Origin: Thermoanaerobacter kivui
GTDB lineage: Bacteria > Bacillota > Thermoanaerobacteria > Thermoanaerobacterales > Thermoanaerobacteraceae
Direction of reading: 5' to 3'
Assembly (NCBI RefSeq): GCF_000763575.1
Contig: NZ_CP009170.1
Location: 2,257,501-2,321,500 of the forward strand
DNA length: 64,000 nucleotides
Shown: positions 5,929-25,863 of the stretch, in pieces
How the letters are laid out: every line of letters begins with the position of its first letter
Position numbering within the stretch: position 1 is the first letter of the stretch
The notes under the pieces: model-generated
What the model saw: only the letters and a program-made list of their open reading frames with translations
Databases searched by the model: none
What the model was told of the DNA's origin: nothing
Made by a program: the position numbers and the translations under genes

Positions 5929-8639
5929 ATTCTCGCCTCCATTGCAATTGACCTTGCTATAATCAACATATTAGCAAAATTCATCACTCCATTTGGCGTT
6001 TTTGAAACTATTTCATCAAATTTAGGAAGCAGTATTTCATCAGCATACTTTTCTAAATCATCTCTGTTTCTACTCTGTCGAATAAATATTCTTTTCAATT
6101 CATTTCTCAAAATCCCGAGAACCTGCTCTTTATTTTTATCATCATACAGTCTGTCCACTACCTCAAAAAATTGATAAGGAAATGTGGATGAAAATTCTTC
6201 TTTCTTGAAATGCTCTATAAGTTCTTTCAAAAAATCTATCAACTCCCATTTGCCCCCGCATTCTTTCGGTGCCCCACTTCCTTTTATAAACTTAAGGCAA
6301 AATGCATTTCTATTATACTGTCTTTCATCCTTTGCTTTCTTCTGAGCCAGTTGAACCTCTTTTAAGGCAAGATAAAGAGGGTATTTATGATGAACTATCA
6401 CAATCCCTGCACTCATGGAGGCCTCAGAACTTAAAACTTCTTTAAAAGCGTTCTGCAATTCATAAGCACATCCCAACACCTCTTCTACAGGAAGTAATGC
6501 TAGAACGTCATCCCCTCCTGTATAAACCAATTTTCCGTAATGTTTTTCTTCTACAATTTTTCGCACTTCTTGAAGAGCAAATGTAGAAATTTTTCTGCTT
6601 AGGGTCTGGTGAAGAGAAGGAGTAGTAGGGTGTTTCTTGTAAAGTATCAAAGATAGGTTATCTTTTGCATGTTGTTTTATATGTTCTCCTACTTTGGGGT
6701 GTAAAGTTTCCATTATAGATGGACTATTCTCTCCTTTTAACCATTTCCCCATGTGATCTCCATCCATTTGAAGAATAGCATAATACCTGGAAGGGTTGAT
6801 TTTGTAAGTCTCCAGAAGCTTTCTTATTTTCTGAGCCATGTTCTGAAAGTCCTCTATTTCGAAGTTCTCTGCATATTCGCTTTTAATATATTCTTCTCTA
6901 TAACTCTCTTTCATTAGCCATTGACCATCTATCTCAAAAAGCTGGTTATCCTTTAATTTTGGAACAGAAACAGTATTGGGAAGCATAAATTTCTGCTTAA
7001 ATTCTTTAAATAATTCCTTAAACTCTGCAATAAACTCTTTGTTCTCAGCAATTCTCCTTTTTTCTCCAATAGCTGCCATTTCAGAAGTTGAGGGAAATTT
7101 CAGTTCTTCGGAAAGATTTAGCTCTTCCTTCATTCTCTTTGGGAACAATCGCTTCGCAAGACACACCCCACAAAGTTGTTCTTTTTCTTTTACTAAACCT
7201 TTTTCCTTACTCCTTAATTTCTCCCAATCCAATGGCAAAACTTCAAATTCTCCGCACAAACTGCATTTACGCCCTTTTTGCTCTAACTGTTCAAATTCTC
7301 TTATGCTTTTCCTTGTTCCAAGCAGTTTTTCGGTTAGTTCAAGAAGCAGTGAATAGGCTATGCTAAAATCTCTATATTTTTTACTTTTTTCTTGATTTTT
7401 ACCTAATATTTTATTAACATGTTTCGTAAACTCACTTATCGTGTGATAAAGCTCTGTCTCCCCTATTATTTCTCTATAACCAGCCAAAGCCTCTTCTGGA
7501 GATTCTTCTTCTTCAAACCATGGCATAACTGCCCAATAAACCTGAAAATATTTTAATAGCTGATTTTCAATCTGCAACTGAATTTTTTCTAAATCTCTAT
7601 CCCGATTTAAAATGCCTTCTAATCTTTGCGCTGTCTTTTTGGCTAACCTCTTTAGTTGCTCTTTAAAGTTTTTCTCACATTCTTCGCCCAGTTTCAAAGC
7701 TTCTCCTTCATTAACCGGCACAATTGCAAGAAACTTATTAGGCATATTAGCAATAGTCAATTTTCCTTCTAAACTTTCAGACCTCGGCACTCTATTCCAT
7801 TCTTTAAACCATTCATCAAACTCTGTTTGCGCTAGATCCGTGAATGAATTACCAAATACCTTTGAACTAAGCCATAAATCTACAAGAGGTTGACCTAAAA
7901 GATTCGGGTACACAATTACATCTGGCCCATAATGTTCAACTACAAACTTCATACTTTCCCATATGAAGTAAGAAAGCATATAACTGCCTGCCCATAAATC
8001 AGAAGTTTTTCTAGCGGTAGCAATAAAGCTTTGAACAGGACCAATTGTAAAAAGCAAAAATGCTGGTTTGGGAAGAGCTGAAACCAGAGTGGACGTTTGA
8101 ACAAGGTGATCATAAATAGAATGATTGGGTGCCCTTGTATCTGCAGGATGAATTTTAATCCAGTGAAAAATTTTTTGATAGAATCTCCATAGAAATAAAA
8201 ACAAGATTTTTGCTTTTTCTTCTTTATTTATCTGAGAAAGCTTATAATTCGTTGCAAGTTTCTCTATTAATTCTAAAAAACGCTTATTCTCAGTTTCATA
8301 ATCTGTTTCTGCCAGTATATCGTAATATATTTTTTTATTAAATATGTCAAAAAATATCACATCTTCTCCTCTTATTTTAACAGCCACTGGGGGAAGTATT
8401 CTATTTACAGGATAAGCTTGTGTATCTGCTTTTTCAATAAGTTTCTCTTCTTCCTCCGTTAAATCTTCTCCAAGAAGTGGTTCAATTACTTTAGATTTAA
8501 TTAAAATCTCATGGCATCGACCTTTTTCCTGAAGCTGGAACTTTTTTATACATTCTTCATTGTCCATAGAAATTATCCAATGCTTATGAGGAGGGTCATG
8601 AAGAAAAGCTTTAAGTTTCAGAAGCCATACTTTTTCCAT
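5925..8639 (-). CDS. cmr2: Type III-B Cas10/Cmr2 with HD and GGDD motifs (module A)
   Basis: Large subunit of the Cmr complex, which cuts ssDNA and makes cyclic oligoadenylate on target binding. The ATG at 8639 has a good GAGGGAG site; a GTG at 8654 is also open. From the chosen start the protein has 904 residues. H14-D15 in FLHDPPHKHW is the HD nuclease motif. G-P-V-Q-S-F-I-A-T-A-R-K-T is the family signature near 200. A zinc finger (CSLCGEF ... CGVC) lies near 455-505. L-Q-M-D-G-D-H-M-G and, near 708, T-G-G-D-D-V-L-A form the Palm/cyclase site. All key motifs are present, so this copy looks active, unlike the one in module B. Confidence 0.95.
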   Translation of the reverse strand: MEKVWLLKLKAFLHDPPHKHWIISMDNEECIKKFQLQEKGRCHEILIKSKVIEPLLGEDLTEEEEKLIEKADTQAYPVNRILPPVAVKIRGEDVIFFDIFNKKIYYDILAETDYETENKRFLELIEKLATNYKLSQINKEEKAKILFLFLWRFYQKIFHWIKIHPADTRAPNHSIYDHLVQTSTLVSALPKPAFLLFTIGPVQSFIATARKTSDLWAGSYMLSYFIWESMKFVVEHYGPDVIVYPNLLGQPLVDLWLSSKVFGNSFTDLAQTEFDEWFKEWNRVPRSESLEGKLTIANMPNKFLAIVPVNEGEALKLGEECEKNFKEQLKRLAKKTAQRLEGILNRDRDLEKIQLQIENQLLKYFQVYWAVMPWFEEEESPEEALAGYREIIGETELYHTISEFTKHVNKILGKNQEKSKKYRDFSIAYSLLLELTEKLLGTRKSIREFEQLEQKGRKCSLCGEFEVLPLDWEKLRSKEKGLVKEKEQLCGVCLAKRLFPKRMKEELNLSEELKFPSTSEMAAIGEKRRIAENKEFIAEFKELFKEFKQKFMLPNTVSVPKLKDNQLFEIDGQWLMKESYREEYIKSEYAENFEIEDFQNMAQKIRKLLETYKINPSRYYAILQMDGDHMGKWLKGENSPSIMETLHPKVGEHIKQHAKDNLSLILYKKHPTTPSLHQTLSRKISTFALQEVRKIVEEKHYGKLVYTGGDDVLALLPVEEVLGCAYELQNAFKEVLSSEASMSAGIVIVHHKYPLYLALKEVQLAQKKAKDERQYNRNAFCLKFIKGSGAPKECGGKWELIDFLKELIEHFKKEEFSSTFPYQFFEVVDRLYDDKNKEQVLGILRNELKRIFIRQSRNRDDLEKYADEILLPKFDEIVSKTPNGVMNFANMLIIARSIAMEARI

Positions 8640-9790: not shown

Positions 9791-10602
9791 TTACGGCACG
9801 TTAATGAACACCGGATTCGCCCATACCTCGCTGAGGTCCGAGCCGTCCGTCTTAGTGAATTCGAACTTTACGACATAAAAGCCGTCGGTCGATGGGGCTA
9901 TAGTGTTCCAATATATCACCGATGTAGACGGATTGGTCACGGTATAGACGGCTACCTGGTCCTTGTTGAATACCGTGATCTTCGTGCACTTCCGGCCGGT
10001 TACCGGGGTCTGTACCAGCTTGAACTGCAGACTCGAGCCGGGTGTCACGTTCAGGACGCTTCCTTGAACGGCCCCGTTGACGGTAAAGTATCCGAGGTCC
10101 TTCCGCCCGGAGGCGCTGACCCTACCGGACTTGATCGCATCCCAGATAGCAGCCCTGTTTGTCGACGAATACGAAGTCGCGTACGCCCAGGTGAACCCCG
10201 CGAACCCCGGCGCCTGGAAGTTGTGGCAATCCGACGTCCCGATGCCCACCATAAACCTACCGCTGGACATCGTTGAAGAAAGCCCGCTGCGCAACAGCGT
10301 AAACCAGCGAGAGATAGTATCGGGTTTGACAACGGTCTCCTGACTTAAAAGCTCCATCCCGCAAAAACCCGTTGCATTCCAGTCACTCCACGGATGAGCT
10401 CCGTAAGGATGGGCGATGACCGCATAGGAGTACGGATAGTTATGCCCGTTTATCCGGTTGATGAGCTCTTGCGCTGGATAGGTTTGGTTATTGGGCACCG
10501 TGGCAGCTGTTTCACTCATCCAGTAAGCTAGGGCATCCCCTTGGGAGTTTGCCGTAGTGATCTCTACACCTGGTAGCGCGGGGATAAGGTACTTGGACTG
10601 AG
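9791..10602 (-). pseudogene. 5'-truncated PHP-type metallohydrolase (CehA/McbA-like)
   Basis: The C-terminal part, about 270 residues, of a PHP-fold phosphoesterase-like protein. Visible motifs are I-P-A-L-P-G-V-E-I-T-T, A-V-I-A-H-P-Y-G-A-H-P and I-G-T-S-D-C-H-N-F, the middle and late metal-binding motifs of the family, followed by a beta-rich C-terminal domain. The first motif (usually H-x-H near the N-terminus) is absent. Reading upstream, the frame runs directly into the trailer-end CRISPR repeat, whose first base on the plus strand is 10603; the only start there is a TTG inside the repeat. So the 5' part was lost, with the breakpoint at a repeat boundary. Function is inferred from motifs only. 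Confidence 0.75.
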
Positions 10603-13325
10603 GTTTCAATCCCTCTTAGGTAGGCTAAAAACCTGTAATTGTTTTTGTGTATCTTATGCGCTTTCCTGGTTTCAATCCCTCTTAGGTAGGCTAAAAACGG
10701 TTGTAGGAGACAGCAAGCGTGGCGAATACCCTGTGTTTCAATCCCTCTTAGGTAGGCTAAAAACGTATCCGGTGTGTCAGTAGGAAGCACCGCTGTCACC
10801 TGTTTCAATCCCTCTTAGGTAGGCTAAAAACAACAGCTGATTGACAAGCAGCTGATTGACAAACAGCGTTTCAATCCCTCTTAGGTAGGCTAAAAACGCT
10901 CCAGAAAAATCAAGGCTTCCGGGCATTTGAATATAGTTTCAATCCCTCTTAGGTAGGCTAAAAACAACTACACGAGAGACTGAAAAAATACAGCAACGAA
11001 GTTTCAATCCCTCTTAGGTAGGCTAAAAACCTATCCTCCGCCAAGAAGGTGCTTTCTTAGCTGCTTGTTTCAATCCCTCTTAGGTAGGCTAAAAACTAGT
11101 GCCCTATAACGGTGCAAATATCCTGCGTAGTGTTTCAATCCCTCTTAGGTAGGCTAAAAACTTATTTCTGTTTTAAAGGGTAGCAAAAGGGTTGCATTGT
11201 TTCAATCCCTCTTAGGTAGGCTAAAAACGGTTCTCCGCCTGCCGGAGGTTGCCACTCCGGCAGGGTTTCAATCCCTCTTAGGTAGGCTAAAAACTCTAGT
11301 AAAACTAGAAGATGGAGAGAGGAGGTTGTCCTGTTTCAATCCCTCTTAGGTAGGCTAAAAACCTGCTCTTTTGTAAGTTCTTCTACATTACTTGTACTGG
11401 TTTCAATCCCTCTTAGGTAGGCTAAAAACGAGGGAACCGCCAAGGTTCTCTCGGAAATATTAGGAATGTTTCAATCCCTCTTAGGTAGGCTAAAAACTAG
11501 CAACGCCTATGATTGAAAGCCCGACTATAACCGGTTTCAATCCCTCTTAGGTAGGCTAAAAACTGGAAAATCGTGATTTAGAAAAAATCATTGAAACATT
11601 GTTTCAATCCCTCTTAGGTAGGCTAAAAACATGCAAAAATTCAAATCGACTACACAGACCCTTTCATGTTTCAATCCCTCTTAGGTAGGCTAAAAACTGC
11701 CGGTTTTCCAAGTATTTCTGATATTTTATTAATGTTTCAATCCCTCTTAGGTCGGCTAAAAACCCCATGTCGCCATTTTTATTCATCCTCCTTTTTTGTG
11801 TTTCAATCCCTCTTAGGTAGGCTAAAAACAACGCTGTCCGAGATTGACGCTGCCTTGGCACAGGTGTTTCAATCCCTCTTAGGTAGGCTAAAAACACAGG
11901 ATAGCCTGCAAAGGTATTCGGTCTGCCAGCTGTTTCAATCCCTCTTAGGTAGGCTAAAAACGAAGAAGGCCAAACAAAAAATGCAATCGTATGGTTTGTT
12001 TCAATCCCTCTTAGGTAGGCTAAAAACCTCCATACCCTTCTTCATGTCAGCGAGTATCTCGCGTTTCAATCCCTCTTAGGTAGGCTAAAAACGAGGTGAA
12101 GTAGTAAAGGTTTGGCTTACAGCGCATGAGTTTCAATCCCTCTTAGGTAGGCTAAAAACTTTCCACCTTCCCATCATCCCCTTTCAGAAGGTCGCGTTTC
12201 AATCCCTCTTAGGTAGGCTAAAAACGGGCTTGAGTACGATATACCGGAACCGGATGATTTGTTTCAATCCCTCTTAGGTAGGCTAAAAACAGCGGGGTAT
12301 GGGGGAGGGGAATACTAGCATATTCCGTTTCAATCCCTCTTAGGTAGGCTAAAAACGAAAAACGAATGCTTCAGGACTTTCATGAACGGGGAGTTTCAAT
12401 CCCTCTTAGGTAGGCTAAAAACTCGATGACTTGGGTAAAGAAAACGTGTCTGAATACAGTTTCAATCCCTCTTAGGTAGGCTAAAAACCAGTATGCACAC
12501 GTTGTAATGGAAGCGGTTGGATAAGTTTCAATCCCTCTTAGGTAGGCTAAAAACCTGACGAGATAAAAAATCCGCGGGGCGATTAGGCCTTGTTTCAATC
12601 CCTCTTAGGTAGGCTAAAAACGCGGTGCGGATAAAGGGTTTCCCACGCTGGAAACCTCGTTTCAATCCCTCTTAGGTAGGCTAAAAACAGCTATACTAAG
12701 GGCACGATGTTTTCCGCTAAAAATGTTTCAATCCCTCTTAGGTAGGCTAAAAACTGGTACCGGGTTCCCGTACTCTCAGTAGCAAACGAGGTTTCAATCC
12801 CTCTTAGGTAGGCTAAAAACGCCTACCGGCGGGAAAATATTTTTCGGCAGTGCAGAGTTTCAATCCCTCTTAGGTAGGCTAAAAACGAGTATTTCTAAAC
12901 CCGCCGGTGGCCGGGGCGGGATAGTTTCAATCCCTCTTAGGTAGGCTAAAAACATCACTAGCTAATTTTTTTATTTGTCTTCTAATGCGGTTTCAATCCC
13001 TCTTAGGTAGGCTAAAAACTTTTGTTATCAGGTCTAATCTGCCTTCAGTCCACGCATGTTTCAATCCCTCTTAGGTAGGCTAAAAACAATATTTAAAAGA
13101 GGGTAAAAATGTTATATATGATGGTTTCAATCCCTCTTAGGTAGGCTAAAAACTAAGGGCAGTATAGAATATTTTAAAGTTGCATACACGTTTCAATCCC
13201 TCTTAGGTAGGCTAAAAACTCAGGATGGCAGTCGCTGGGGGAAATGCTTACCTCAGCGTTTCAATCCCTCTTAGGTAGGCTAAAAACAACAAGCATGATA
13301 GCAGCACTAATGCCCCTTGGGATTT

Positions 13326-14899
13326 ATTTCAATCCCTCTTAGGTAGGCTAAAAACGATATTAAGAAAACGGCTGAAGATTACTACATCGGATTTCAATCC
13401 CTCTTAGGTAGGCTAAAAACAAGACGAAAAGGGGCTAAAAATTAGGGCTAAATTGGCGATTTCAATCCCTCTTAGGTAGGCTAAAAACAAGACGAAAAGG
13501 GGCTAAAAATTAGGGCTAAATTGGCGATTTCAATCCCTCTTAGGTAGGCTAAAAACATCATATGCAGAGTTTTGCAGATTATTATTTTGTACCATTTCAA
13601 TCCCTCTTAGGTAGGCTAAAAACCTGCTGGTGGCTGTTCCTGGCAGTAGCTCTAGCAGTAGTAAATTTCAATCCCTCTTAGGTAGGCTAAAAACTAAGAT
13701 ACTCTATTTCTTCTTCCGTTAGCTCAGGAATTTCAATCCCTCTTAGGTAGGCTAAAAACTCTTTTGTATCCATTCTTATCCTCTCCATTCTTCGATTTCA
13801 ATCCCTCTTAGGTAGGCTAAAAACGGATAAAAATATCCTTATAAGGACTGCATCAAGTGAATTTCAATCCCTCTTAGGTAGGCTAAAAACAGGATGGCCT
13901 CTATATAGGCCAGATTTCTTTTGTTATTTCATTTCAATCCCTCTTAGGTAGGCTAAAAACAAGAGTGAGTAATTATGAAGAGTCCATATTCAAGAATGCT
14001 ATTTCAATCCCTCTTAGGTAGGCTAAAAACCTGGGCGTGCAATGGGTTTTGAGTCGTATACGCATTATTTCAATCCCTCTTAGGTAGGCTAAAAACTACG
14101 ATGAAGAGAAGAAAAACGAAAGATTGTATGTACATTTCAATCCCTCTTAGGTAGGCTAAAAACTAGCAGTTCCGCCAGTATGGGAAAATTGCCAAGGTTC
14201 ATTTCAATCCCTCTTAGGTAGGCTAAAAACAATATGGAAAGAGTCAGGTGTAGACGTTGCAGAAGAATTTCAATCCCTCTTAGGTAGGCTAAAAACTAAG
14301 TCAACCAACTGCTTAATCACTCCGGAATAGTTCTATTTCAATCCCTCTTAGGTAGGCTAAAAACAAGAAAAGGCAATAAATATGTGTATTTCTCTACTCC
14401 ATTTCAATCCCTCTTAGGTAGGCTAAAAACAGCATTATCCTCATCTTCACCTCCTTCATCTACTTCATTTCAATCCCTCTTAGGTAGGCTAAAAACAGCA
14501 TTATCCTCATCTTCACCTCCTTCATCTACTTCATTTCAATCCCTCTTAGGTAGGCTAAAAACAAGAACTAATCAGGCTAGAAGAAGCAGTAAAAACATCA
14601 TATTTCAATCCCTCTTAGGTAGGCTAAAAACGTAGAGCACTGCTAAGTAAAGGTTTTGTTTTGTATGGATTTCAATCCCTCTTAGGTAGGCTAAAAACTT
14701 CCAGCATACTTACAAACATCTCAGCAAACTTCTTATTTCAATCCCTCTTAGGTAGGCTAAAAACACGGGATACCAAACTCTCCAAATTGGTATCCCGCTT
14801 TTGATTTCAATCCCTCTTAGGTAGGCTAAAAACACGTACTTTTACCTCACTAGCATTTAGAGTTACTGCATTTCAATCCCTCTTAGGTAGGCTAAAAAC
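13326..14899 (-). repeat. Block of 24 variant CRISPR repeats
   Basis: Repeats 42 to 65 all begin ATTTCAATC on the plus strand, whereas all repeats on both sides begin GTTTCAATC. In the crRNA sense the last repeat base changes from C to T, that is the base next to the spacer. The block is unbroken, with both tandem-duplicated spacers inside it. Confidence 0.9.
14765..14803 (-). repeat. Hairpin-forming spacer
   Basis: The spacer contains CGGGATACCAA and TTGGTATCCCG, a perfect 11-bp stem with a loop of about 10 nt. On the transcribed strand the stem is followed within two bases by GTTTTT of the next repeat, which resembles an intrinsic terminator. On the plus strand it is followed by CTTTT, so the protospacer was probably a phage or plasmid terminator. 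Confidence 0.7.
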
Positions 14900-16371
14900 T
14901 ATAAATGCGTCACTCTCTTTAAATTGTGCTTCTAAAGTTTCAATCCCTCTTAGGTAGGCTAAAAACTTACCCGGGAGTACAACGGCTAGGAGGTGGTCTG
15001 TGTTTCAATCCCTCTTAGGTAGGCTAAAAACTTGGGTATAAAAATATGAGTGCCCTCACAAATTTATGTTTCAATCCCTCTTAGGTAGGCTAAAAACAGG
15101 ACGGAGAAAAGTATTTTTTGCTTCGCGTAAAAGGGTTTCAATCCCTCTTAGGTAGGCTAAAAACAAATGAATTTGTGGCAACTCATCTACTGTGTTATTT
15201 TGTTTCAATCCCTCTTAGGTAGGCTAAAAACAATAGGCGCTTGTCCTGATAGCCGTTCAGCTTTCTTATGTTTCAATCCCTCTTAGGTAGGCTAAAAACA
15301 TCTGTGCGCAAAAAAATAAAGCTGTTCACAGGTTTGTTTCAATCCCTCTTAGGTAGGCTAAAAACAAAAGATACCTTTATGTGCAGGGAGGTTGCAGAGG
15401 TGTTTCAATCCCTCTTAGGTAGGCTAAAAACAATAATCCCCCAAATGGATACACTCGTTATCAACAATGTTTCAATCCCTCTTAGGTAGGCTAAAAACCT
15501 TTTTCTCTTGTTCTCAGCAGCTGCAGATAGTCTAGTTTCAATCCCTCTTAGGTAGGCTAAAAACAGTGTTATTATAGAGAATACAAATGCTTTTGCATCA
15601 GTTTCAATCCCTCTTAGGTAGGCTAAAAACTATAGAAGAATGGATTGAACAGCATTATAAAGATTTGTTTCAATCCCTCTTAGGTAGGCTAAAAACTTGC
15701 AAGCTTCCATTTTGTTTTGACTGCCACTCTTGTTTCAATCCCTCTTAGGTAGGCTAAAAACCTATGTCCAATATGAGAACAGGTGTATCTGCTTATGTTG
15801 TTTCAATCCCTCTTAGGTAGGCTAAAAACTTTTTCATGCGAAAAGAAGTACTTGTTCGGATTGTGCGGTTTCAATCCCTCTTAGGTAGGCTAAAAACAAG
15901 GCATAAATTTGGCTCAGAATCGTTTCTAAAATGGTTTCAATCCCTCTTAGGTAGGCTAAAAACAAGGCACAAATTTGGCTCAGAATCGTTTCTAAAATGG
16001 TTTCAATCCCTCTTAGGTAGGCTAAAAACAATTACAAGAAGATATGCGCATCTGGGAAGTATCCGGGTTTCAATCCCTCTTAGGTAGGCTAAAAACATGG
16101 CTACTTCCATTCCGCATCCTATATCTACTCCAAGTTTCAATCCCTCTTAGGTAGGCTAAAAACGCACAATAGGACAGGCGCAAGAGGAAGGAAAAGAAAA
16201 GGGTTTCAATCCCTCTTAGGTAGGCTAAAAACAGGACATTTGGAACATGAGGGGAATATTTTTTCTAACGTTTCAATCCCTCTTAGGTAGGCTAAAAACA
16301 CGTTCAAAAAACCATAAAAAGCGAATAAAAATTTTGCCTCTCATAATGGCTTTGTCAAGTATCTTGCCTTT

Positions 16372-16399
16372 ATTATATCACATTATTCGATAAAATCAA
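16372..16399 (-). promoter_or_regulatory. Predicted pre-crRNA promoter
   Basis: On the minus strand TTGATT (16399-16394) and TATAAT (16377-16372) are separated by 16 bp. A start near 16365 would give about 65 nt of leader RNA before the first repeat. This is the best promoter match in the leader. Confidence 0.7.
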
Positions 16400-16427
16400 T
16401 TACCTTAATGAAAACAAAAAATAAAAA

Positions 16428-16801: not shown

Positions 16802-17065
16802 TCAATATATCCATTCTTCTCCTCCCTTTTTTATCCCTAAAAGCTCTCTTTTAGTATATTTAGTATTGCCTAAAATATAAAATAGAACAGAATCTTCTTC
16901 AGGGTCAATAATGCGTGTAAGGTCATTTTTTAAAGCTCGATAGGTAGCTTCTGTGAGTTCTCCTTCCAATACAGAATTCTGCACCCAAGTGAGATAACGC
17001 CGGGCGGTTTTTAGAACTTTATTTACTCTATTTACATTTACATCATATACCAAAATCACATACAT
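16802..17065 (-). CDS. cas2: CRISPR adaptation protein Cas2
   Basis: An 87-residue ferredoxin-fold protein that bridges two Cas1 dimers in the spacer integration complex. It opens with MYVILVYDVNVNRVNKVLKTARRY: the VYD aspartate is typical of Cas2. The motif W-V-Q-N-S-V-L-E-G and the end I-L-G-N-T-K-Y-T are also typical. It is the last gene of the long cas operon, directly before the leader, 36 bp after cas1. Confidence 0.95.
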   Translation of the reverse strand: MYVILVYDVNVNRVNKVLKTARRYLTWVQNSVLEGELTEATYRALKNDLTRIIDPEEDSVLFYILGNTKYTKRELLGIKKGGEEWIY

Positions 17066-17101: not shown

Positions 17102-18094
17102 TCACCATCTACTCACAAAAGGTTCATATAATTCTTCCCCAATAAGATGTTTTTCTATCTTATATAGTTCCAATCGAATCAAAGTCTGATAACTTACATT
17201 GCGTTTAAGACGGCGATGATAAAACGTGGTTCGTAGTTTATCTTCAAATTCTTGCACATAAAGACGCCTCCCTCTTTCTTTTAGTAAAAACACTCCTCCC
17301 TGGTTTTCGAAATCATCTTCTTTTATAACGTTCTTATTCAAAAGTGTAAAAAGCACTCTATCAGCATAAATAGGTTTAAAAATTTCTGCTACATCTAAAT
17401 TCAGTGTAAAACGCCTGAAATTAGTAGTGTGGAAATAACCAATCCTTGGATCTAAATGTGTCTTATAAATTTCAGTCAAAATCTTAGTATAAACTAATGA
17501 ATTGCCAAAACTAATAAGAGCATTCAGTGGATCAGTAGGCGGGCGTTTACTTCTATTTTTCAAAATAAAAGGAGTATCATCGAGTATCGTGTTAAAACTT
17601 TCATAATAATAACGACGAATATTTCCTTCTAAAGCCATTAATTCTTCCACTGAAGAAACCGAAGATACACTCTCTTCTAATAAGGAAATTGCATACAAAT
17701 AGCTTTCTAAATCTTTACCGCGATTCTGATAATACTTTAATACCTGTACAATATTGGCTACTGCACCTTGAACAAATCTTTTTGCTAAGTCTAAACGTTT
17801 AGTAGAGTCTAAGTAATGTTCTGCTTGTCTTAAAATTATATAGCCTGAATTATAATGTTCCCTAGGGTAAAAAGTTCCTACATAGTTACCATAGTAACCA
17901 AAAAAATGCAAGATTATTTCTTTATCTTCGGCGAATTCTATAAACTTTTTATTCAAATCAACTTCTCCAAAAACATATATATCCCTTATACTTTCTACGG
18001 GAAAATATTTTCTCTCCTTTTCTCCCTCCACGCAAATGGTATTATCTTTTCTATACAATCTGCCATTGGCAAAAAGATAAAGTGTTTTCTGCAA
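17102..18094 (-). CDS. cas1: CRISPR integrase Cas1 (I-B type)
   Basis: The 330-residue integrase that inserts new spacers at the leader end. The three metal-binding positions are visible: Glu in M-A-L-E-G-N, His in G-Y-F-H-T-T-N near residue 220, and Asp in L-N-L-D-V-A-E-I-F near 233. The N-terminal beta domain begins LYLFANGRLYRKDN. Length and motifs match Cas1 of subtype I-B. It sits between cas4 and cas2, the usual I-B order, and all catalytic residues are kept, so adaptation is likely active; the array size agrees. Confidence 0.96.
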   Translation of the reverse strand: MQKTLYLFANGRLYRKDNTICVEGEKERKYFPVESIRDIYVFGEVDLNKKFIEFAEDKEIILHFFGYYGNYVGTFYPREHYNSGYIILRQAEHYLDSTKRLDLAKRFVQGAVANIVQVLKYYQNRGKDLESYLYAISLLEESVSSVSSVEELMALEGNIRRYYYESFNTILDDTPFILKNRSKRPPTDPLNALISFGNSLVYTKILTEIYKTHLDPRIGYFHTTNFRRFTLNLDVAEIFKPIYADRVLFTLLNKNVIKEDDFENQGGVFLLKERGRRLYVQEFEDKLRTTFYHRRLKRNVSYQTLIRLELYKIEKHLIGEELYEPFVSRW

Positions 18095-18136: not shown

Positions 18137-18670
18137 CTATGCCCAGCAAAATTCGGCATAGGCACATTTGGAACAATAACGTCCTCTGTGAGGAGATGGA
18201 GGAAGTGGTTGGTTTATCAATTCTAAAATTTCCTGCTTTACCTTTTCTACTTTTCCTTCCCATTCTGGGGTTAAAATCAAAATCTCTTTTTTTCTCTCCT
18301 CTGGAAATAAAAGTTCTCCTTCAGCCTCTATCCCCATATTTTTTAATTCATAAAGATAAAAAGCTAACTGCATTCGTGCAGCCTCTATAGCTTTAGAAGT
18401 TTTCTTAACTTCAGCTATCACTAAAGTTTTTTCGCCCCTTTTAATCATATCTAAAGCCAAATGTTCTATGTGCACTTCTTTTCTTTCCCTACTATAGGCT
18501 TGTTTTTGAATTAATCTACCTATCTGTAAAAATATATTATCTTCGTCTGGACATACCTGTCGAGACATAAGCCATACCTGACGTGGACATATAAAAAAGG
18601 CCTGTACATAACTACCTATAACCTTAGATAGTTCTTCTTCCAAAGAAAATAAAGTACTCAATAGATCCAC
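18137..18670 (-). CDS. cas4: Cas4 nuclease, [4Fe-4S] type
   Basis: A 177-residue RecB-like nuclease that trims prespacers and selects the PAM side. Cys28 (FFICPRQVWL) and the C-terminal cysteines 166, 169 and 175 (YCSKCAYAEFCWA) form the iron-sulphur cluster site. V-I-A-E-V-K-K-T-S-K supplies the nuclease E-x-K motif. The start overlaps the end of cas3 by 13 bp. Confidence 0.95.
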   Translation of the reverse strand: MDLLSTLFSLEEELSKVIGSYVQAFFICPRQVWLMSRQVCPDEDNIFLQIGRLIQKQAYSRERKEVHIEHLALDMIKRGEKTLVIAEVKKTSKAIEAARMQLAFYLYELKNMGIEAEGELLFPEERKKEILILTPEWEGKVEKVKQEILELINQPLPPSPHRGRYCSKCAYAEFCWA

Positions 18671-21126
18671 GTCCCTTCTTCCTTAAGCTTAAATCCAGTA
18701 TTTGGGTCATAAAACTCATCTACTAAATCTCTGGAAAGATAGGGTATGGTTTTGCCTATATCTACTTTGTTTATCAAGACTTTAGCTGGTACAGAAATAA
18801 TGTAACGTCCAAAATCCTTTTTTATTTTGTAAAAGGCTTCCCATCGGGCTTTACGATTAGAGGCTTTAATTACTTCTCTTTGATAAAAATTCCAAACTTC
18901 TTCTGCCTTATCATCTAACGCAACATATACACTTACAAGGTCCCACCGATTTTTAATCAATTGAAAATCGCTAACACCATAAGTATCATTTTGTGCTTTA
19001 GTAAACCGGCAGTAAGACATAGCCTCCAATAGCCCTATACTTTTACTCTGGTCTTTTTTCTCCCTGACCATTTCAAAAAATTGTTCCACTAAAACAGGGA
19101 ATTCTTTTTCATCAAATTCTCGCCTTTCTGAAAAAACTTGCTTGGCGCAATGAATATGAACTGCCCCATAAACTGATGGAGCCATAATTTCGCCGTTTTC
19201 ATTTACCAATTCAAAAAGCCTTACTATACCCTTCCCATGCTTAAAATTGCGATTACATCTCCCCGCCGCTTGTATGACCGAATCGATAGGTCCAATATCT
19301 CTCCAAACCTCATCAAAATCCAAATCCACACCAGCTTCCACTACTTGGGTAGATATTACAATGGGTTTCTCTCCTCTCCTCAGTATCTCCTTGATTTTCT
19401 TTATCCTCTCCTCTCTTTGCAAAGGTATTATATTAGTAGATAAATAATAAACATCTGCTTCAGGCATAAGCATAGTTAGTTTCTCATAAAATTCTATTGA
19501 GCTTCTGATAGTATTAGATATCACGAGATAAGACTTGTCTTTCTTATAATTATTGACAAAAATTTTAACCGCATCTTCTATACTTTTTTCCCCACCTTCA
19601 ATTTTTAATCGAACTCGAGAAAGTTCATTAAAGTATCCGATAATATCTTGGGCTTCCCCTGCTAACTCTATAGCTTCCCCAGGACCAAACCACTCTGGTC
19701 TGGTAGCAGTCATAAGAATCAACCTTAAATCAAAATATTCTGCTGCTTCCTTCAATACTTTTATCACAAGAGGCCAATACTCAACTGGTATATTTTGTAC
19801 TTCGTCCATTATTAAAATGGAAAGGTTAAGCTGGGAAAACTTTTTAAGCATTCTATTTCTATTCCCTATTAAAGTATGAAGTAACTGTACAAAAGTAGTA
19901 ACTACCACCTCACTTTTCCAGCTTTCTATAAGGAGCATAGCTTCGTCAAAAGCTCGCATATCTTCTTCCTCTCTATCTTGATAAAAAATTTCACTCAAGT
20001 GATGGTGTTTAAGTAAATAAGGCGAAGGAGTGGAGGAAAACTGATCTACAGTTTTAGAAAAAATCTGATGCATTACTTCATAAGTTTGATCTATTATGCT
20101 TGTAAAAGGCAGCGCATATATGATTTTAGGAGCCGTGCCATAGATTTCTTTTAAGCGCTCTCTTAAAATGAACGCTGCGTTTATAACAGCAAGAGTCTTA
20201 CCACTGCCAGTAGGAGCTGTGAGAGTAAAAAAGCGTTGTTCAAGAGGTGCGTTTTTTATTCGTTCAGCCGCCTGTTCAAAAACTTTTTGCCGTATGTCAA
20301 CAATTTTAGGTTCTCCACTAGGAGTAAAATGTTTTTCTTTATATATGACTACCAAATTAGGAGGAAAATCCACCCGTTTAACTTCTCTGACCCGTCCACT
20401 GTGAAGTTTGTCATTGTTTATTAGAACAGAAAAGAGAGACACCATTTTGAAATATTCGTTTAACTCCCCGCTTTTTGCCCTTTTTTCTCGATAAAATTTT
20501 CTCCATTTTTTATGAAGAGAAGTATAAACATTTTTCCAATCGTCAAAAAATTCATTTAAAAGCTCTTCACAGTTTTGCTTCAAAACAGAAAGGACAGGAA
20601 GGTCTTTCGCACTTAACATTTTTATTAACCACTGCCGGGCTTTATTCAAAGAAAAAGAAACAGCTTTTGCATGTTTTTTTAAGTCTTTTATTTGCTGTTC
20701 TATAATTTCTAACCGTCTGGCTTTATTGGGATCCAGAGTTTTTTCATAATAATCTTCCATCTCTAAAGGAGATACCAAGTACTCTTCTATATTCCCCAAA
20801 TCTCTGTGATGCCATAGAACTGACATAAAAACCATTAATTCATCCCAATCTTTTAATCCTTCTTTACCTACTAAAAATGTACTCCATATGGCTGAAATAA
20901 AAGCATGATCTTTATAGGGATTAGTTTGCTCTTTAAGTAAATAATCTTGAAAATAACTAGTATATTTACCAAAATCATGACCAAACCCAGCAATAGTAGC
21001 GGGAAAAACCAGTTCTTTCCCATTGGGTAGTTTGATTATGTCTTCTGCAGATTTGAGTGCAACGAAAACTAAATGAGCACCTAAGCGATAGAGGGCTTTT
21101 TGTTCTCTGTGGGCATAGTAAACCAT
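18658..21126 (-). CDS. cas3: Cas3 HD nuclease-helicase (type I-B)
   Basis: Target-degrading enzyme of type I-B interference, 822 residues. The N-terminal HD domain shows A-G-F-G-H-D-F-G-K-Y near residue 48 and L-W-H-H-R-D near 105. The helicase part has Walker A (TAPTGSGKT, about 303), the DEVQ box (about 438), an M-T-A-T-R motif III, and near the end V-V-E-A-G-V-D-L-D-F and Q-A-A-G-R-C-N-R (motifs V and VI). All motifs look intact. Its start overlaps the end of cas5 by 46 bp; the N-terminal Y-Y-A-H-R-E supports this start. Confidence 0.96.
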   Translation of the reverse strand: MVYYAHREQKALYRLGAHLVFVALKSAEDIIKLPNGKELVFPATIAGFGHDFGKYTSYFQDYLLKEQTNPYKDHAFISAIWSTFLVGKEGLKDWDELMVFMSVLWHHRDLGNIEEYLVSPLEMEDYYEKTLDPNKARRLEIIEQQIKDLKKHAKAVSFSLNKARQWLIKMLSAKDLPVLSVLKQNCEELLNEFFDDWKNVYTSLHKKWRKFYREKRAKSGELNEYFKMVSLFSVLINNDKLHSGRVREVKRVDFPPNLVVIYKEKHFTPSGEPKIVDIRQKVFEQAAERIKNAPLEQRFFTLTAPTGSGKTLAVINAAFILRERLKEIYGTAPKIIYALPFTSIIDQTYEVMHQIFSKTVDQFSSTPSPYLLKHHHLSEIFYQDREEEDMRAFDEAMLLIESWKSEVVVTTFVQLLHTLIGNRNRMLKKFSQLNLSILIMDEVQNIPVEYWPLVIKVLKEAAEYFDLRLILMTATRPEWFGPGEAIELAGEAQDIIGYFNELSRVRLKIEGGEKSIEDAVKIFVNNYKKDKSYLVISNTIRSSIEFYEKLTMLMPEADVYYLSTNIIPLQREERIKKIKEILRRGEKPIVISTQVVEAGVDLDFDEVWRDIGPIDSVIQAAGRCNRNFKHGKGIVRLFELVNENGEIMAPSVYGAVHIHCAKQVFSERREFDEKEFPVLVEQFFEMVREKKDQSKSIGLLEAMSYCRFTKAQNDTYGVSDFQLIKNRWDLVSVYVALDDKAEEVWNFYQREVIKASNRKARWEAFYKIKKDFGRYIISVPAKVLINKVDIGKTIPYLSRDLVDEFYDPNTGFKLKEEGTWIY

Positions 21127-21881
21127 AATTCCCCCTCCATAAAAGCTACATTTTCTTCCCCTGAAGGCAGAGAAAAACTATACGCATCAATTGAGAGTAT
21201 AGCTTTCCAAGGCTGCCCCTTGGTCTCATAGATATAACTTCTAGGGGGTAAAAGATTTCTGCCTTCAGAAAAAGCTTCAGGAGCTTTTTCTCTGTTTAAT
21301 GTAATCCCATTAGTTAAAAAGGGCTTTTTTAAAAAATCAACCGTTAAAACAGAATGGAGCATGACCTCTTCCCCTGCAGGGATTACTTTTGAAGGTTCAC
21401 CAAAATATACTAATTGAGTCTGAGCAATAAATTCTGTCAAACCCAGGTAAAGAGGAAAATACGGCTTATTCTGTTTTAGCCTTTTTGCAACTTCCTCTGT
21501 TATTCCTTCTTCTTTATGCCCAAAATAGATACGGTAATTTAGCATAGGAGCTCCTCCTCCGGGGAGGAGAAGCTCCAGAGGTACCTGGGTTCCTTTCATG
21601 AAACCTAATTTTTTCATCATATTTAGATCCTCTTCCTTAGTTCTAATATAATTTACTGTTTGAAAGAGACTTCGCACTGGAACTTTTATAACTACTCCAA
21701 ATCTCGCATTGTCGGGATTTAATTTTTCATAATAGCTATCCCTTTCCCACCCCAAAATAGCCGCTATTATCCCCATGAGCACTGTCCTTGGGGGAAAAGG
21801 ATAAGACAAAGAAGAAGTATTAGTATAATATTTGCGGAAATGGGCGAAAGGCCCCCGCAAATCAAATACAGCTATCTTCAT
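21081..21881 (-). CDS. cas5: Cas5, I-B Cascade subunit
   Basis: A RAMP-fold protein of 266 residues that binds the 5' handle of the crRNA in the I-B Cascade. It starts MKIAVFDLRGPFAHFRKYYT, typical of Cas5h, then has F-P-P-R-T-V-L-M-G-I-I-A-A-I-L-G, the glycine-containing helix of the family. It lies 16 bp after cas7. Confidence 0.94.
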   Translation of the reverse strand: MKIAVFDLRGPFAHFRKYYTNTSSLSYPFPPRTVLMGIIAAILGWERDSYYEKLNPDNARFGVVIKVPVRSLFQTVNYIRTKEEDLNMMKKLGFMKGTQVPLELLLPGGGAPMLNYRIYFGHKEEGITEEVAKRLKQNKPYFPLYLGLTEFIAQTQLVYFGEPSKVIPAGEEVMLHSVLTVDFLKKPFLTNGITLNREKAPEAFSEGRNLLPPRSYIYETKGQPWKAILSIDAYSFSLPSGEENVAFMEGELWFTMPTENKKPSIA

Positions 21882-21897
21882 ATCTTCTTCTCCCTTC

Positions 21898-22881
21898 TTA
21901 AACCAGAGATATTACTTTCGAAGATCCCAATATATTTTCCAACATCTCAGAAAATGTTTGTTCTTCTCCATTTACAAGTGTCATCAAATCTACATCTTGC
22001 CATACGAATACCCTGTTAATCTTTTCTTTCATACCTTCCAAATATCTTGTAATTCCTCCAATTTCTAATTTTACATCTTGAATAGAGCGCAATCCTTCCT
22101 CTTCAGAAAGTCGGAGATATTGTCTTAAATCTCCTATGAAGGTCTCATCATCTATATATTCAAATCGGACATAGAGGCGAGGATATTGCCCAATTTTGGA
22201 ACGAGTAGCCAATAAAGGAATGGCTTTAAGCATAGCTTGATCTAAAAGTTCTAAATCCTCATAAGTAGTAGCACCTAAGAGATTTTCTCCTGCCTTTTTG
22301 TACATTTCCCTTGCCCGGCGTGCACTGATAATCCCGTGGAAGGCAATCAAAGAATAATAAAGTCTATAATCCTTGCCAAAAGTGCCCTGACCAGCTTGCT
22401 GTCTGGAGGAAAATTGGGAAGAAATAGTATTAGATTCTACTAATTGAACTCTATTGAGAGAATATCCCCAGTTAAACTGTACTGGTCCAGTAAGAGTTAT
22501 CCCTTCTCCTTCTCCCTTTCGCTCACCTTTTATAGGCATGGTAGCTCCGAAAAGGCGCACATCAATTAGTTTTGTAAGTAAAATTGGCAGGTCAGCTCCA
22601 CTAACGTTATCTTTGCCTAAGATTCTTTTTATTCTATCTTCAGCTTGCCCTATGCCTTCAGCTTTGGTTACATAAATGGTTTGGTCCTCTCCCTTGGCTT
22701 GGAAATAATCATATAAATAGTCCCTTATATAGCGCTTAAGTCTTACATCAGAAACTAAATTACGCTCTCGTTCTAAGTCCATTCTTGGTCTGTTTTCGTC
22801 ATCGGGGTCACCATTGGGATTGCACATCTTTGCATCGTAAATGAACAATATTTCGCCGTTCTTATCAACAAGAGTTCTCAT
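21898..22881 (-). CDS. cas7: Cas7 (Csh2), I-B Cascade backbone
   Basis: A 327-residue backbone subunit that wraps the crRNA spacer. It begins with the Csh2 signature G-E-I-L-F-I-Y-D-A-K-M-C-N-P-N-G-D-P, then E-N-R-P-R-M-D. L-T-G-P-V-Q-F-N-W-G-Y-S near the middle is also characteristic. It lies 4 bp after cas8b, so the two are coupled. Confidence 0.96.
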   Translation of the reverse strand: MRTLVDKNGEILFIYDAKMCNPNGDPDDENRPRMDLERERNLVSDVRLKRYIRDYLYDYFQAKGEDQTIYVTKAEGIGQAEDRIKRILGKDNVSGADLPILLTKLIDVRLFGATMPIKGERKGEGEGITLTGPVQFNWGYSLNRVQLVESNTISSQFSSRQQAGQGTFGKDYRLYYSLIAFHGIISARRAREMYKKAGENLLGATTYEDLELLDQAMLKAIPLLATRSKIGQYPRLYVRFEYIDDETFIGDLRQYLRLSEEEGLRSIQDVKLEIGGITRYLEGMKEKINRVFVWQDVDLMTLVNGEEQTFSEMLENILGSSKVISLV

Positions 22882-22885
22882 ATAA

Positions 22886-24994
22886 TCATTCCTCCTCTTC
22901 TTTTTCTTCTAAATTTTCTTTTTTACCTGACATTCTGGAACCAAAAGCATACCCTGACAGTATATAAAAGACGTTTTCCTCAGATGTCAAAGGCCAATCT
23001 TTTTCACCGCGGTATTTGTCCATGAGCTTTTTCATCTCACTGTAAACCTGCTCATTGAAGCGAAGTTTATCATACTGTCTTAGTTTTTCAAAAATCAAGT
23101 TGGACAATTGCTGAACTTTTTTAAAGCTCATGCCTTGATAGTTGATTTTGTCTAAAATAGGTTTGCTCTTATGCCCTGAAGAGTATTGTCCCTTACCTAC
23201 TTCGCTTATGAGATAGCCCATCAAAAAGAGAGCAGCCTGAGGTTCACTGTATTTCATCTCTAATAAATAGTTTTTTATCTCTGGTTTCACTTCCAGCATT
23301 TCTGATACTTCCGTCAAGTTTTTCACCCCTTTTAATAATTTTTCTTCCTGTAAAAGTTTTATTAAAAATCCAGCTCTTAAAATTTCCTGACTTAAAATCC
23401 AATCCCTATTTTCTTGAGCAATTCTTCTCCTCTCTTGATTAGTACCAGCTAATGAATCTGTTAAATAGAGGCGTGCTAAAGTTACAAATTGAGTTACAAG
23501 AAAATCGTAATCTATAGGTTCTCTTTTAAGCAGTCCATGATAAAGGTAAAGTAACTTTTTGTGCTCTGTCTTATCACCCTCTCTCAAAGGTAGTAGATAA
23601 TAAAGTCGGGTAAGGTCCAACCACCAATCTCTGCAATCACCACCCAATAATTTAGCAGCCAGGTGAGAAAGCTGGTTACTCTTCTTAAAAAGCCCAAAGA
23701 GCCAGCTTGGGGCCACATCTTCAATTAAGCTTAAAACTCTAAATTCACTCTGGGTTTTTTGATAAAATAAGAAAGTTAAAAGAGCTTGATTCTCTATCCC
23801 TTCTTCTTCCATCTCATAAAGTACTCTTCTAAGTTCTTTTTCAAATTCTTTTTCATCCGCTATACTCCTCACCTGACCAGTAAAATCTACAATATTTTGT
23901 GTTTTCTTTCTTAACTTCCCTACTATATTAGAAAAATCCATCTTCCATCCTTCTAAATCATGAGTTAAAAGTAATGAAGGTAAAAGTAAGAAACTAAGAT
24001 TGCCTATTCTAAATCCCAAATTGCTGAGCATATATCTTTCAGCTACCAAAAGAGAATTAAAGCATTCCTCGCAAATGAGAAAATTGCGAGAAAAGCCTTT
24101 TTCATTTAATTCAGAAGCAAAACCAATTTTATCAGTTATATAAGGCTTAAAAAATTCAAGTCGCTTAAAAGCAGTAGGACTGACTCTGTCTTTCTTTTCT
24201 CCGCAAATCGAGCAATATCCTTCAATCACCTCCTTTTCAAATCCTTCTGTACGATATTCAATTATCACATCGTCATAGGGTGATAAATCTATTAAAGGTT
24301 TATTATTTAAAACTATTGTCCACAGGGCTATTTGCCTCTTTTTTACTCCAATTTTTTTAGCAATCTCTTCTGACAACTCTTGCGCTACTAATTTGGCTAA
24401 ATCTTTTTTCTTAATTAGCTCTTTAGCTTTTTTGATAATATCTTTAATTTCTTTTTGCGCCTTTTTATCAGTTTGCTCCTTCTGATATTGGTTTAATTGC
24501 TGTAAAAAATTGTCCAGTTCATTGAGGTTCTCTTTTAACTTATCATCTTTTAAAGGAAAACCAATTTTTCTAATATCAAATAAGCTTTCACCATTTGGTA
24601 GCACAACAAAATATCCTTTTAATATTTTATCTATTGAAAGAGCCAATTCCGAATGTTGTCTGCTGCGGCGTAAAAGTGTCTGATAAAGGTTAGAAAGCGT
24701 AGAACCCATAAGATAATTTAAATTGCTAACAGTAAGAAATATTTGAGGAATATTCCCTGAAGCATTACCTACAAAACGCCAGCGAAATAAAAAATCTTTT
24801 CTGGATTTGTACTCCTCTGGAATCTCTTCCAAATCAAAATTAAATTTTAATTCTTCACCTTCTTCAAAGAATTTAAGTTTAACTAAATATTGTTCCTCCT
24901 CCTGTTTAGGTGAACTCAAATCTTCTATAAGGTAGGAAAGCATTTCTTCATCAACGCCCAAGTTTTTGCCAATAAAAGTTACTGCCTCTAACAT
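22886..24994 (-). CDS. cas8b: Cas8b (Csh1), I-B Cascade large subunit
   Basis: A large protein of 702 residues in the position of Cas8b, which recognises the PAM and recruits Cas3. The middle holds a Cys4 zinc-finger-like set: Y-C-S-I-C-G-E-K and about 55 residues later I-C-E-E-C-F, typical of Csh1. Family conservation is low; the call rests on the finger, size and the gene order before cas7-cas5-cas3. The end is acidic (KEEE). It lies 2 bp after module B cmr6, so the I-B and III-B genes are joined in one transcription unit. Confidence 0.88.
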   Translation of the reverse strand: MLEAVTFIGKNLGVDEEMLSYLIEDLSSPKQEEEQYLVKLKFFEEGEELKFNFDLEEIPEEYKSRKDFLFRWRFVGNASGNIPQIFLTVSNLNYLMGSTLSNLYQTLLRRSRQHSELALSIDKILKGYFVVLPNGESLFDIRKIGFPLKDDKLKENLNELDNFLQQLNQYQKEQTDKKAQKEIKDIIKKAKELIKKKDLAKLVAQELSEEIAKKIGVKKRQIALWTIVLNNKPLIDLSPYDDVIIEYRTEGFEKEVIEGYCSICGEKKDRVSPTAFKRLEFFKPYITDKIGFASELNEKGFSRNFLICEECFNSLLVAERYMLSNLGFRIGNLSFLLLPSLLLTHDLEGWKMDFSNIVGKLRKKTQNIVDFTGQVRSIADEKEFEKELRRVLYEMEEEGIENQALLTFLFYQKTQSEFRVLSLIEDVAPSWLFGLFKKSNQLSHLAAKLLGGDCRDWWLDLTRLYYLLPLREGDKTEHKKLLYLYHGLLKREPIDYDFLVTQFVTLARLYLTDSLAGTNQERRRIAQENRDWILSQEILRAGFLIKLLQEEKLLKGVKNLTEVSEMLEVKPEIKNYLLEMKYSEPQAALFLMGYLISEVGKGQYSSGHKSKPILDKINYQGMSFKKVQQLSNLIFEKLRQYDKLRFNEQVYSEMKKLMDKYRGEKDWPLTSEENVFYILSGYAFGSRMSGKKENLEEKEEEE

Positions 24995-24996
24995 TT

Positions 24997-25863
24997 TTAT
25001 CCCTCTTTCTTTAATGATTGTGCCAATTTCCTCTGAGCCTCTTCGTGTGGTTCAAATCGACCATAGCCTACAGAAGTTTTAGCTCCGGCTCCAGCCCAGC
25101 TAAGAGCTTCTTTTATCCATTCCTGCAATTTAAATATATCTTCTTTTCCTTCTTTAATTCGAGGAGCTATGGCAAAAACAAAAGTTTGGTCTGAAGCTAC
25201 TGTTAAAAAAGGTATGGGCACAGGGTCATACCAATCTCCCGGCGCATACCAATCTCCCGGCGCTTTTTCGATTTTATTTTTCTCTTGCAAATAATAGGGG
25301 CTGTAATGGGGTGTCATTACATCAGCTTCTAATTTAATAGCTTTTATTGGTAACACATCAAAGAAAATGACGCTTCCTGCTTTATCGGATTTTCCCTTGC
25401 CTTTAGGTCCAAATATTTTCTCTATTTCTTTCGGATCTATCTCGCTCCATTCTTCTGCCCAAGAACGCACTAATCCTTTAAAAGAACTTCCCGGAAGATA
25501 AGGCACTCCCAAAGTATGATGCCATACAAAACCATTTTCTATGGGGTGTTTTCTCCCCAAGCCGGTAACAAACCGCCACTGGGTTTTGTAACACATATAA
25601 CTTCCTCCTAAAGTTGTTACAAGAGATAAAAGGCGAGTAAGAGCTTCTTGTATAAGTGATGGGTCGCCTATGTCACCACTAGTCACCGATTGAATCCATT
25701 CTTTTTTCCCATCTTTTTTCCCATCTTTTTTCCCATCTTTCGCTATAGTCCAATCTTTTTCCCACTGGTAGAAAAATTTATCATACCAGAGGCCAGCGTT
25801 AAAATTTTTTTGATATTTCTTCCACATTTCGATATTTTGAGCTTCTTGATAAAGAGGAATCAT
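24997..25863 (-). CDS. cmr6: Type III-B RAMP protein Cmr6 (module B)
   Basis: The Cmr6 of module B, 288 residues, with V-T-G-L-G-R-K-H-P-I-E-N-G, L-P-G-S-S-F-K-G-L-V-R and the C-terminal A-G-A-K-T-S-V-G-Y-G-R-F. Two small tandem repeats are seen: DGKK three times near residue 43, encoded by 12-bp units, and APGDWY twice near residue 210, encoded by an 18-bp direct repeat around 25226-25262. Module A has a single PGDW there. Both are in frame. The insert at PGDW is close to a conserved segment and may affect assembly. Confidence 0.92.
   Translation of the reverse strand: MIPLYQEAQNIEMWKKYQKNFNAGLWYDKFFYQWEKDWTIAKDGKKDGKKDGKKEWIQSVTSGDIGDPSLIQEALTRLLSLVTTLGGSYMCYKTQWRFVTGLGRKHPIENGFVWHHTLGVPYLPGSSFKGLVRSWAEEWSEIDPKEIEKIFGPKGKGKSDKAGSVIFFDVLPIKAIKLEADVMTPHYSPYYLQEKNKIEKAPGDWYAPGDWYDPVPIPFLTVASDQTFVFAIAPRIKEGKEDIFKLQEWIKEALSWAGAGAKTSVGYGRFEPHEEAQRKLAQSLKKEG

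Follow-up and report, generated by a model that had tools for sequence, protein, structure and literature searches.

A returning block of 24 repeats with one changed terminal base in a type I-B CRISPR array of Thermoanaerobacter kivui, and repeat ends written by incoming spacers in its relatives

Background

If each new repeat of a CRISPR array is copied from the leader-proximal one, a base changed in that repeat should pass to all later repeats; how, then, can an array carry a changed base through 24 consecutive repeats and afterwards return cleanly to the original? The question is raised by array 1 of the thermophilic, acetogenic bacterium Thermoanaerobacter kivui DSM 2030, which lies in the window analysed here, a stretch of 64,000 nucleotides of a genome assembled as a single contig of 2,397,824 bases. 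Coordinates without a prefix are those of the window. A sequence-only reading of the window had named three ways back, namely reversion, a base given by an incoming spacer, and recombination with another array, and this list proved to be the right one. We weigh these ways against each other using a survey of arrays from T. kivui and its relatives.

Results and discussion

The array and its locus

Array 1, which gives 86 matches to Rfam CRISPR-DR2 and corresponds to 2,268,103-2,273,799 of T. kivui DSM 2030 in PMC12044746, belongs to a type I-B CRISPR-Cas locus in which a leader-bearing repeat array is adjoined by type I-B cas genes:

10603..16299, minus strand: type I-B CRISPR array 1 of T. kivui, 86 repeats, leader at right
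16300..16420, minus strand: leader, extent approximate, ending GAACGT directly at the repeat
16802..17065, minus strand: small ORF of 87 aa in place of cas2
17102..18094, minus strand: cas1, type I-B (TIGR03641)
18137..18670, minus strand: cas4 (TIGR00372)
18658..24994, minus strand: cas3, cas5b, cas7b and cas8b

We take the ORF at 16802..17065 to be Cas2 from its position. As the leader, cas1, cas4 and this ORF all lie at the right, the crRNA sense is that of the minus strand and the repeats become younger rightward; the variable base is therefore the last base of the repeat (position 30, hereafter r30), which abuts the PAM-side end of the spacer. The GAACGT of the leader abuts the repeat as in C. 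subterraneus, with nothing inserted between the two. The type I-B genes are directly followed by a Cmr6-like type III-B gene (24997-25863), and by this adjacency array 1 may also serve a type III system. At the opposite end a gene for a CehA/McbA-type metallohydrolase (9791-10609), apparently without its first part, abuts the first, perfect repeat, and the old end of the array may have been cut or moved at this gene.

The block of repeats 42-65

In crRNA sense the repeat of array 1 is GTTTTTAGCCTACCTAAGAGGGATTGAAA followed by C or, in the block, by T, and the array divides into the following parts:

10603..13287, minus strand: older segment, repeats 1-41, last crRNA-sense base C
11734..11763, minus strand: repeat 18, the only other repeat variant, its change not inherited by the neighbours
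13288..13325, minus strand: spacer 41, taken up at the switch from C to T; it ends 3' in T, as does the leader
13326..14899, minus strand: the block, repeats 42-65, last crRNA-sense base T (A on the plus strand)
13421..13526, minus strand: spacers 43 and 44, duplicates in tandem, separated by repeat 44
14431..14532, minus strand: spacers 58 and 59, duplicates in tandem, separated by repeat 59
14900..14936, minus strand: spacer 65, taken up at the return from T to C; it ends 3' in A, whereas the leader ends in T
14937..16299, minus strand: youngest segment, repeats 66-86, last crRNA-sense base C

The block is as sharp-edged and unmixed as the sequence-only reading had described it: the first plus-strand base is A in 24/24 repeats from 42 to 65 and G in 62/62 others. 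The 29-base core is the same in 85 of the 86 repeats, repeat 18 with its one internal change being the exception. Were 24 A-type repeats placed at random among 86, a single unbroken run of 24 would arise with a chance of 5e-20, so the run reflects inheritance along the array, and copying from the leader-proximal repeat, as had been proposed, accounts for its one-way course. Each repeat is flanked by a spacer of its own, bar the tandem duplicates 43/44 and 58/59; the adjacent spacers 80 and 81 (15898-15999) differ by one base. The predicted crRNA start should be AUUGAAAU for spacers 41-64 and AUUGAAAC for the other spacers.

Heritable switches and return blocks among 76 arrays

The survey comprised 76 arrays with 4598 repeats from T. 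kivui and its relatives; 4274 repeats were counted after trimming, which removed the two oldest repeats of each array, all repeats after a first slide (defined below) and the repeats of array L192 past repeat 36. What had looked like a slide at repeat 36 of L192 is an internal change, the spacer end there matching the leader by chance. Heritable switches occurred at positions 5 (one), 6 (two), 16 (three), 18 (five) and 30 (four), and two of the four at r30 are array 1's own. The last base is thus among the three most switched positions, and an early notion that such switching is unique to the repeat end was discarded, as positions 16 and 18 switch equally often. Single mid-array changes were found at positions 1 (five), 2 (one), 9 (three), 11 (two), 13 (one), 18 (one), 21 (two), 22 (one), 26 (three) and 30 (two); an apparent block at position 9 in C. 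subterraneus DSM 13054 (G008) is a mere stretch between two single variants. The five changes at position 1 (L111 repeat 32, L183 repeat 54, L191 repeats 9 and 19, and G018 repeat 5) are all single and none is inherited, whereas changes of the last base are often inherited, a difference that fits fill-in errors at the two joints.

A return block was defined as one in which the original base is regained, with at least two repeats on either side. At r30 the survey yielded two of these and no others, the 24 repeats of array 1 and a block of two (repeats 3-4) in L060. Return blocks also occur at internal positions, namely position 6 of L183 (repeats 5-9) and position 5 of L096 (repeats 4-5), and in L200 (G121:C27) positions 16 and 18 change and return together over repeats 10-14; internal blocks in L058, L202 and G149 have one flanking repeat each on the old side and are hence weak. 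A sharp, returning block is accordingly not tied to the repeat end. The joint return of two linked sites in L200 argues for recombination or conversion rather than back-mutation, a spacer-supplied base being impossible there, and repeats 10-14 of that array are likely a recombination tract.

Repeat ends rewritten by incoming spacers in two relatives

Two arrays of the survey establish that an incoming spacer can supply the end of a repeat:

G001:C1:203000-222900: slid array L098 of a member of T. kivui's family, 59 repeats, with slides within repeats 33-59
G083:C1:1916000-1935900: slid array L115 of a member of T. kivui's phylum, 59 repeats, with slides at repeats 47-59

In the former the last 4-5 repeat bases switch nine times, and in the latter 13 events in a row, which made the 13 youngest units, altered the last 3-4 bases. 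At every one of these 22 switches (9/9 and 13/13) the spacer carries 3-5 leader bases at its 3' end, GGGG or AGGGG in G001 and GTT in G083, a remnant found at none of the 94 other spacers of these arrays (0/49 and 0/45). The mean visible length of spacers with and without a slide is 36.67 against 36.63 in one array and 36.38 against 36.36 in the other. The leader remnants, taken with the unchanged spacer length, mean that the whole duplicated stretch of 30 bp moved into the leader. In such a slide the copied stretch consists of k leader bases and 30-k bases of the repeat, and the prespacer contributes its first k bases as the new repeat end. The first event in G083 changed one base more, on the inner side, than a three-base remnant accounts for.

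Protospacers were found for four of the 22 switch spacers, and in the best-matching copies the rewritten bases agree at 15 of 15 positions: TTAC (spacer identity 33/33), TAGA (29/31), TTTC (33/34) and GCT (33/35). In all four TTA stands directly upstream of the rewritten bases. Other copies of these protospacers agree less, at 3/4, 2/3 and 2/3 rewritten bases. We set aside matches of 77-79% identity in L135, L171, L130 and L173, which agree at 1/4, 1/4, 3/5 and 2/5 rewritten bases and look unrelated; in a further case, GCTA, the match (25/33) lies inside a spacer of another species' array. Spacer-supplied repeat ends are thus real, and proven, in G001 and G083.

Both leaders carry extra bases at the junction with the repeat, GGGG in G001 and GTT in G083. 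A second G083 array (69 repeats, without variation or slide) has the same leader with ATGG directly at the repeat and no GTT, an array of G121 likewise has this leader ending in ATGG at the repeat without GTT, and the G001 leader minus its GGGG resembles that of G017 (18/24). Since its first slide (repeats 33-59) G001 used the shifted site in 9/27 events, and G083 did so in 13/13. On the simplest reading, the end of the leader would set the first cut and the second would fall 30 bp further on. The extra junction bases are accompanied by cuts where the leader would normally end, and viral bases rewrite the repeat ends and are then inherited. These type I-B-like arrays amount to a natural experiment on how the two cuts of CRISPR integration are placed, and through their cut placement what determines the length of type I-B repeats becomes a directly testable question.

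Recombination as the proposed cause of the return

For the block of array 1, our best account, held with middling confidence, is that the array is a mosaic, an inherited substitution having been followed by recombination or conversion that restored a C-ending leader end. A single-base C to T change (crRNA sense), presumably a substitution, would have arisen in the leader-proximal repeat when repeat 42 was made, and T would then have been copied into the next 23 repeats, each templated by the leader-proximal one. At repeat 66 the leader end would have been replaced by, or converted from, a C-ending repeat, either of a sister strain's array or among the array's own 41 older C-type repeats. As ways back to C we would place recombination first, albeit with restrained conviction, double substitution second and a spacer-supplied base third. 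The sequence-only reading had offered recombination as one of its three ways; it is favoured as the general way back by the clean internal return blocks, including the one in L200 with two linked sites.

Rearrangement is visible in the arrays of T. kivui themselves: in array 3 spacers 13-14 repeat spacers 7-8, and array 1 holds the duplicates 43/44 and 58/59. Spacers of at least 39 nt are more frequent in the block (5/24) than outside it (1/61; Fisher 0.006, Levene 0.0016), as if they had been acquired in another background, a signal that is a hint only, since P rises to 0.078 when any stretch of 24 spacers is allowed. The thought that the state of r30 itself broadens spacer length was dropped, the T-ending L096 and the G-ending L057 and L066 being narrow in length. 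Only r30 varies in the block, linked-site switching being seen in L200 instead.

Against the mosaic stands the absence of a donor among 43 other arrays and 20 family genomes, and the shift in spacer G+C, which lies near spacer 35, away from the block edges. The A-only array that the sequence-only reading had proposed to look for did not turn up. In the own genome 155 repeat matches (at most 3 mismatches) all belong to arrays 1 and 2 and one solo repeat, and a block of the array 1 core ending in T in crRNA sense was seen in 0/19 other family genomes; the genome collections used yielded no second T. kivui strain. No spacer of array 1 is identical to any spacer of the 43 other arrays; two spacers of C. 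subterraneus show 91% similarity to spacer 63. The exact array 1 core is abundant in C. subterraneus DSM 13054, with 501 exact matches in which r30 is C, and in the stretches of its record that were analysed every r30 reads C but for one N. The 69 repeats of T. kivui array 2, whose core is different, all end in C; array 3 has 37 repeats ending C, C, C, T and then 33 times G, with no other variation; and in the sister species G002 41/41 repeats of the array end in G, its leader being that of T. kivui array 2 (45/45 printed bases). Among the young spacers of array 1 no old ones are repeated, which argues against reciprocal exchange within the array, as this would duplicate them.

Two independent substitutions as a possible alternative

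We consider as a tentative second choice that the leader-proximal r30 underwent two independent substitutions, forward and back, at a mutable and weakly constrained fill-in joint. The high rank of r30 among switched positions agrees with this, as do the recurrent terminal switches in T. kivui array 3, G017 (repeats 3-6) and L060 (repeats 3-4). The changes at position 1 are always single, as expected if errors in filling that joint fall in the copy that does not template the next repeat. However, four heritable r30 switches in 4274 repeats lead one to expect only about 0.02 in 24 acquisitions, so a return to the same base within the block would be a rare event, and double substitution cannot be the reason for the return at two linked sites in L200.

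A base possibly supplied by the spacer

That an incoming spacer supplied the base, through a one-base shift of the cut or a retained PAM-side base that was then inherited, with a second event restoring C, seems to us unlikely. On this account the end base of the block would be viral: the spacer would have overwritten the end of repeat 42, 23 repeats would have inherited the base, and a second spacer would have overwritten it at repeat 66, a course of events that we would not bet on. If true, the repeat itself would record integrations that were wrongly placed, as is demonstrably the case in G001 and G083. The proposal of the sequence-only reading that a spacer can give the base is borne out for ends of 3-5 bases by the 22/22 leader remnants and 15/15 rewritten bases of these relatives, and in E. 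coli type I-E the PAM provides the last repeat base (PMC3338789). The final T of spacer 41 is also that of the leader and is what a one-base slide would produce (40% of array 1 spacers end this way); spacer 65, however, ends in A, and the return event thus lacks the leader mark seen in the relatives. Over 14 one-base r30 changes the leader base was found in 4, against 3.7 expected; this test leaves aside arrays truncated at the end of a region, such as L058, and events in which an internal base changed at the same time, such as repeat 3 of L060. In the four one-base switches with a candidate protospacer the upstream base is the right one in a single case. The best of the four candidates, for repeat 5 of array 3 in T. 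kivui (T to G; 34/36 identity, with the PAM CCA that PMC12044746 reports for T. kivui), has A there instead of G.

For spacers 41 and 65 no protospacers were found in phages and plasmids (blastn), in 37 genomes of the class or in viral contigs (exact patterns). Candidates in L093 and L207 were rejected, as only 18-21 bases match, the sequences diverging beyond, and the matches are put down to chance. Given a leader without extra junction bases and a return event without a leader mark, a register slide is unlikely in array 1, and one of the G001/G083 type probably does not explain the block. As a variant of spacer supply, a one-sided slip leaving no leader remnant may have acted at repeats 42 and 66.

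Very improbable, in our estimate, is that each acquisition takes the last repeat base from the PAM, as happens in E. coli type I-E, and that the block marks a period of different PAM use. TTG or TCA stands upstream of array 1 protospacers, so the last PAM base does vary. Six array 1 spacers or spacer pairs have matches outside arrays (37, 47, 72, 79, 80/81 and 83; spacers 63, 69 and 77, whose matches lie in other arrays, are excluded), but r30 equals the upstream base in only one of the six, the weak match of spacer 47 (29/35), and spacers 37, 72 and 83 contradict the idea. Since r30 rarely equals the upstream base and is passed on, it is inherited rather than read from the PAM. In the accessible text of PMC3338789 the type I-E change is not passed on, as opposed to the inheritance seen here.

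An assembly or polishing error, for which we found no supporting point, is hardly credible with 24 separate places, nearly all with distinct flanks, forming one sharp block in a single-contig genome, with terminal switching also in array 3 and a sister species; the spacers of their own that flank nearly all repeats make a collapsed-repeat error in particular unlikely.

Relation to known systems

The block is fairly ordinary, a further instance of inherited repeat variation, and the slid arrays of G001 and G083 are the more interesting discovery. The block serves as a clean marker of array assembly and suggests that the order of an array is maybe not one unbroken line of descent. A study of Haloarcula type I-B reportedly dealt with repeat duplication and repeat-length rulers in adaptation. 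The available portion of PMC6895254 describes such rulers in type II-A, and G001 and G083 bear on the same question of where the second cut is placed; in contrast to those rulers, the cuts of the slid arrays move together, the second staying 30 bp off rather than at a fixed place within the repeat. The E. coli type I-E case resembles array 1 in that, as given in the part of PMC3338789 at hand, variation sits at the last repeat base beside the spacer. It differs in that the base there is reset at each event and not passed on, whereas in array 1 it is handed down through 24 repeats and does not track the PAM. Array rearrangement through recombination or replication misalignment between repeats is treated in the accessible sections of the review PMC8047081, and the duplicated spacer units or segments that it describes are likewise visible in T. 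kivui arrays 1 and 3. The topics of these sections are loss and duplication of spacers and polymorphism of the terminal (oldest) repeats; a block of variant ends in mid-array, like that of array 1, is not among them. Natural slid arrays with leader remnants and prespacer-written ends are undescribed in the literature searched, and the accessible parts of PMC3338789, PMC6895254, PMC8047081, PMC4466440 and PMC8406132 describe no natural slid arrays; most subscription papers lay outside this search and we claim no priority.

At a distance of about 2 kb from array 2 we noted a solo unit of a full repeat, a spacer of 35-37 nt and a degenerate second repeat, both in T. kivui (L036 7460-7547, about 1405460-1405546 of its genome) and in G002 (L057, about 7310-7392), the spacers differing. 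No target was found near either unit. Both resemble a minimal array or a CreA-like gene.
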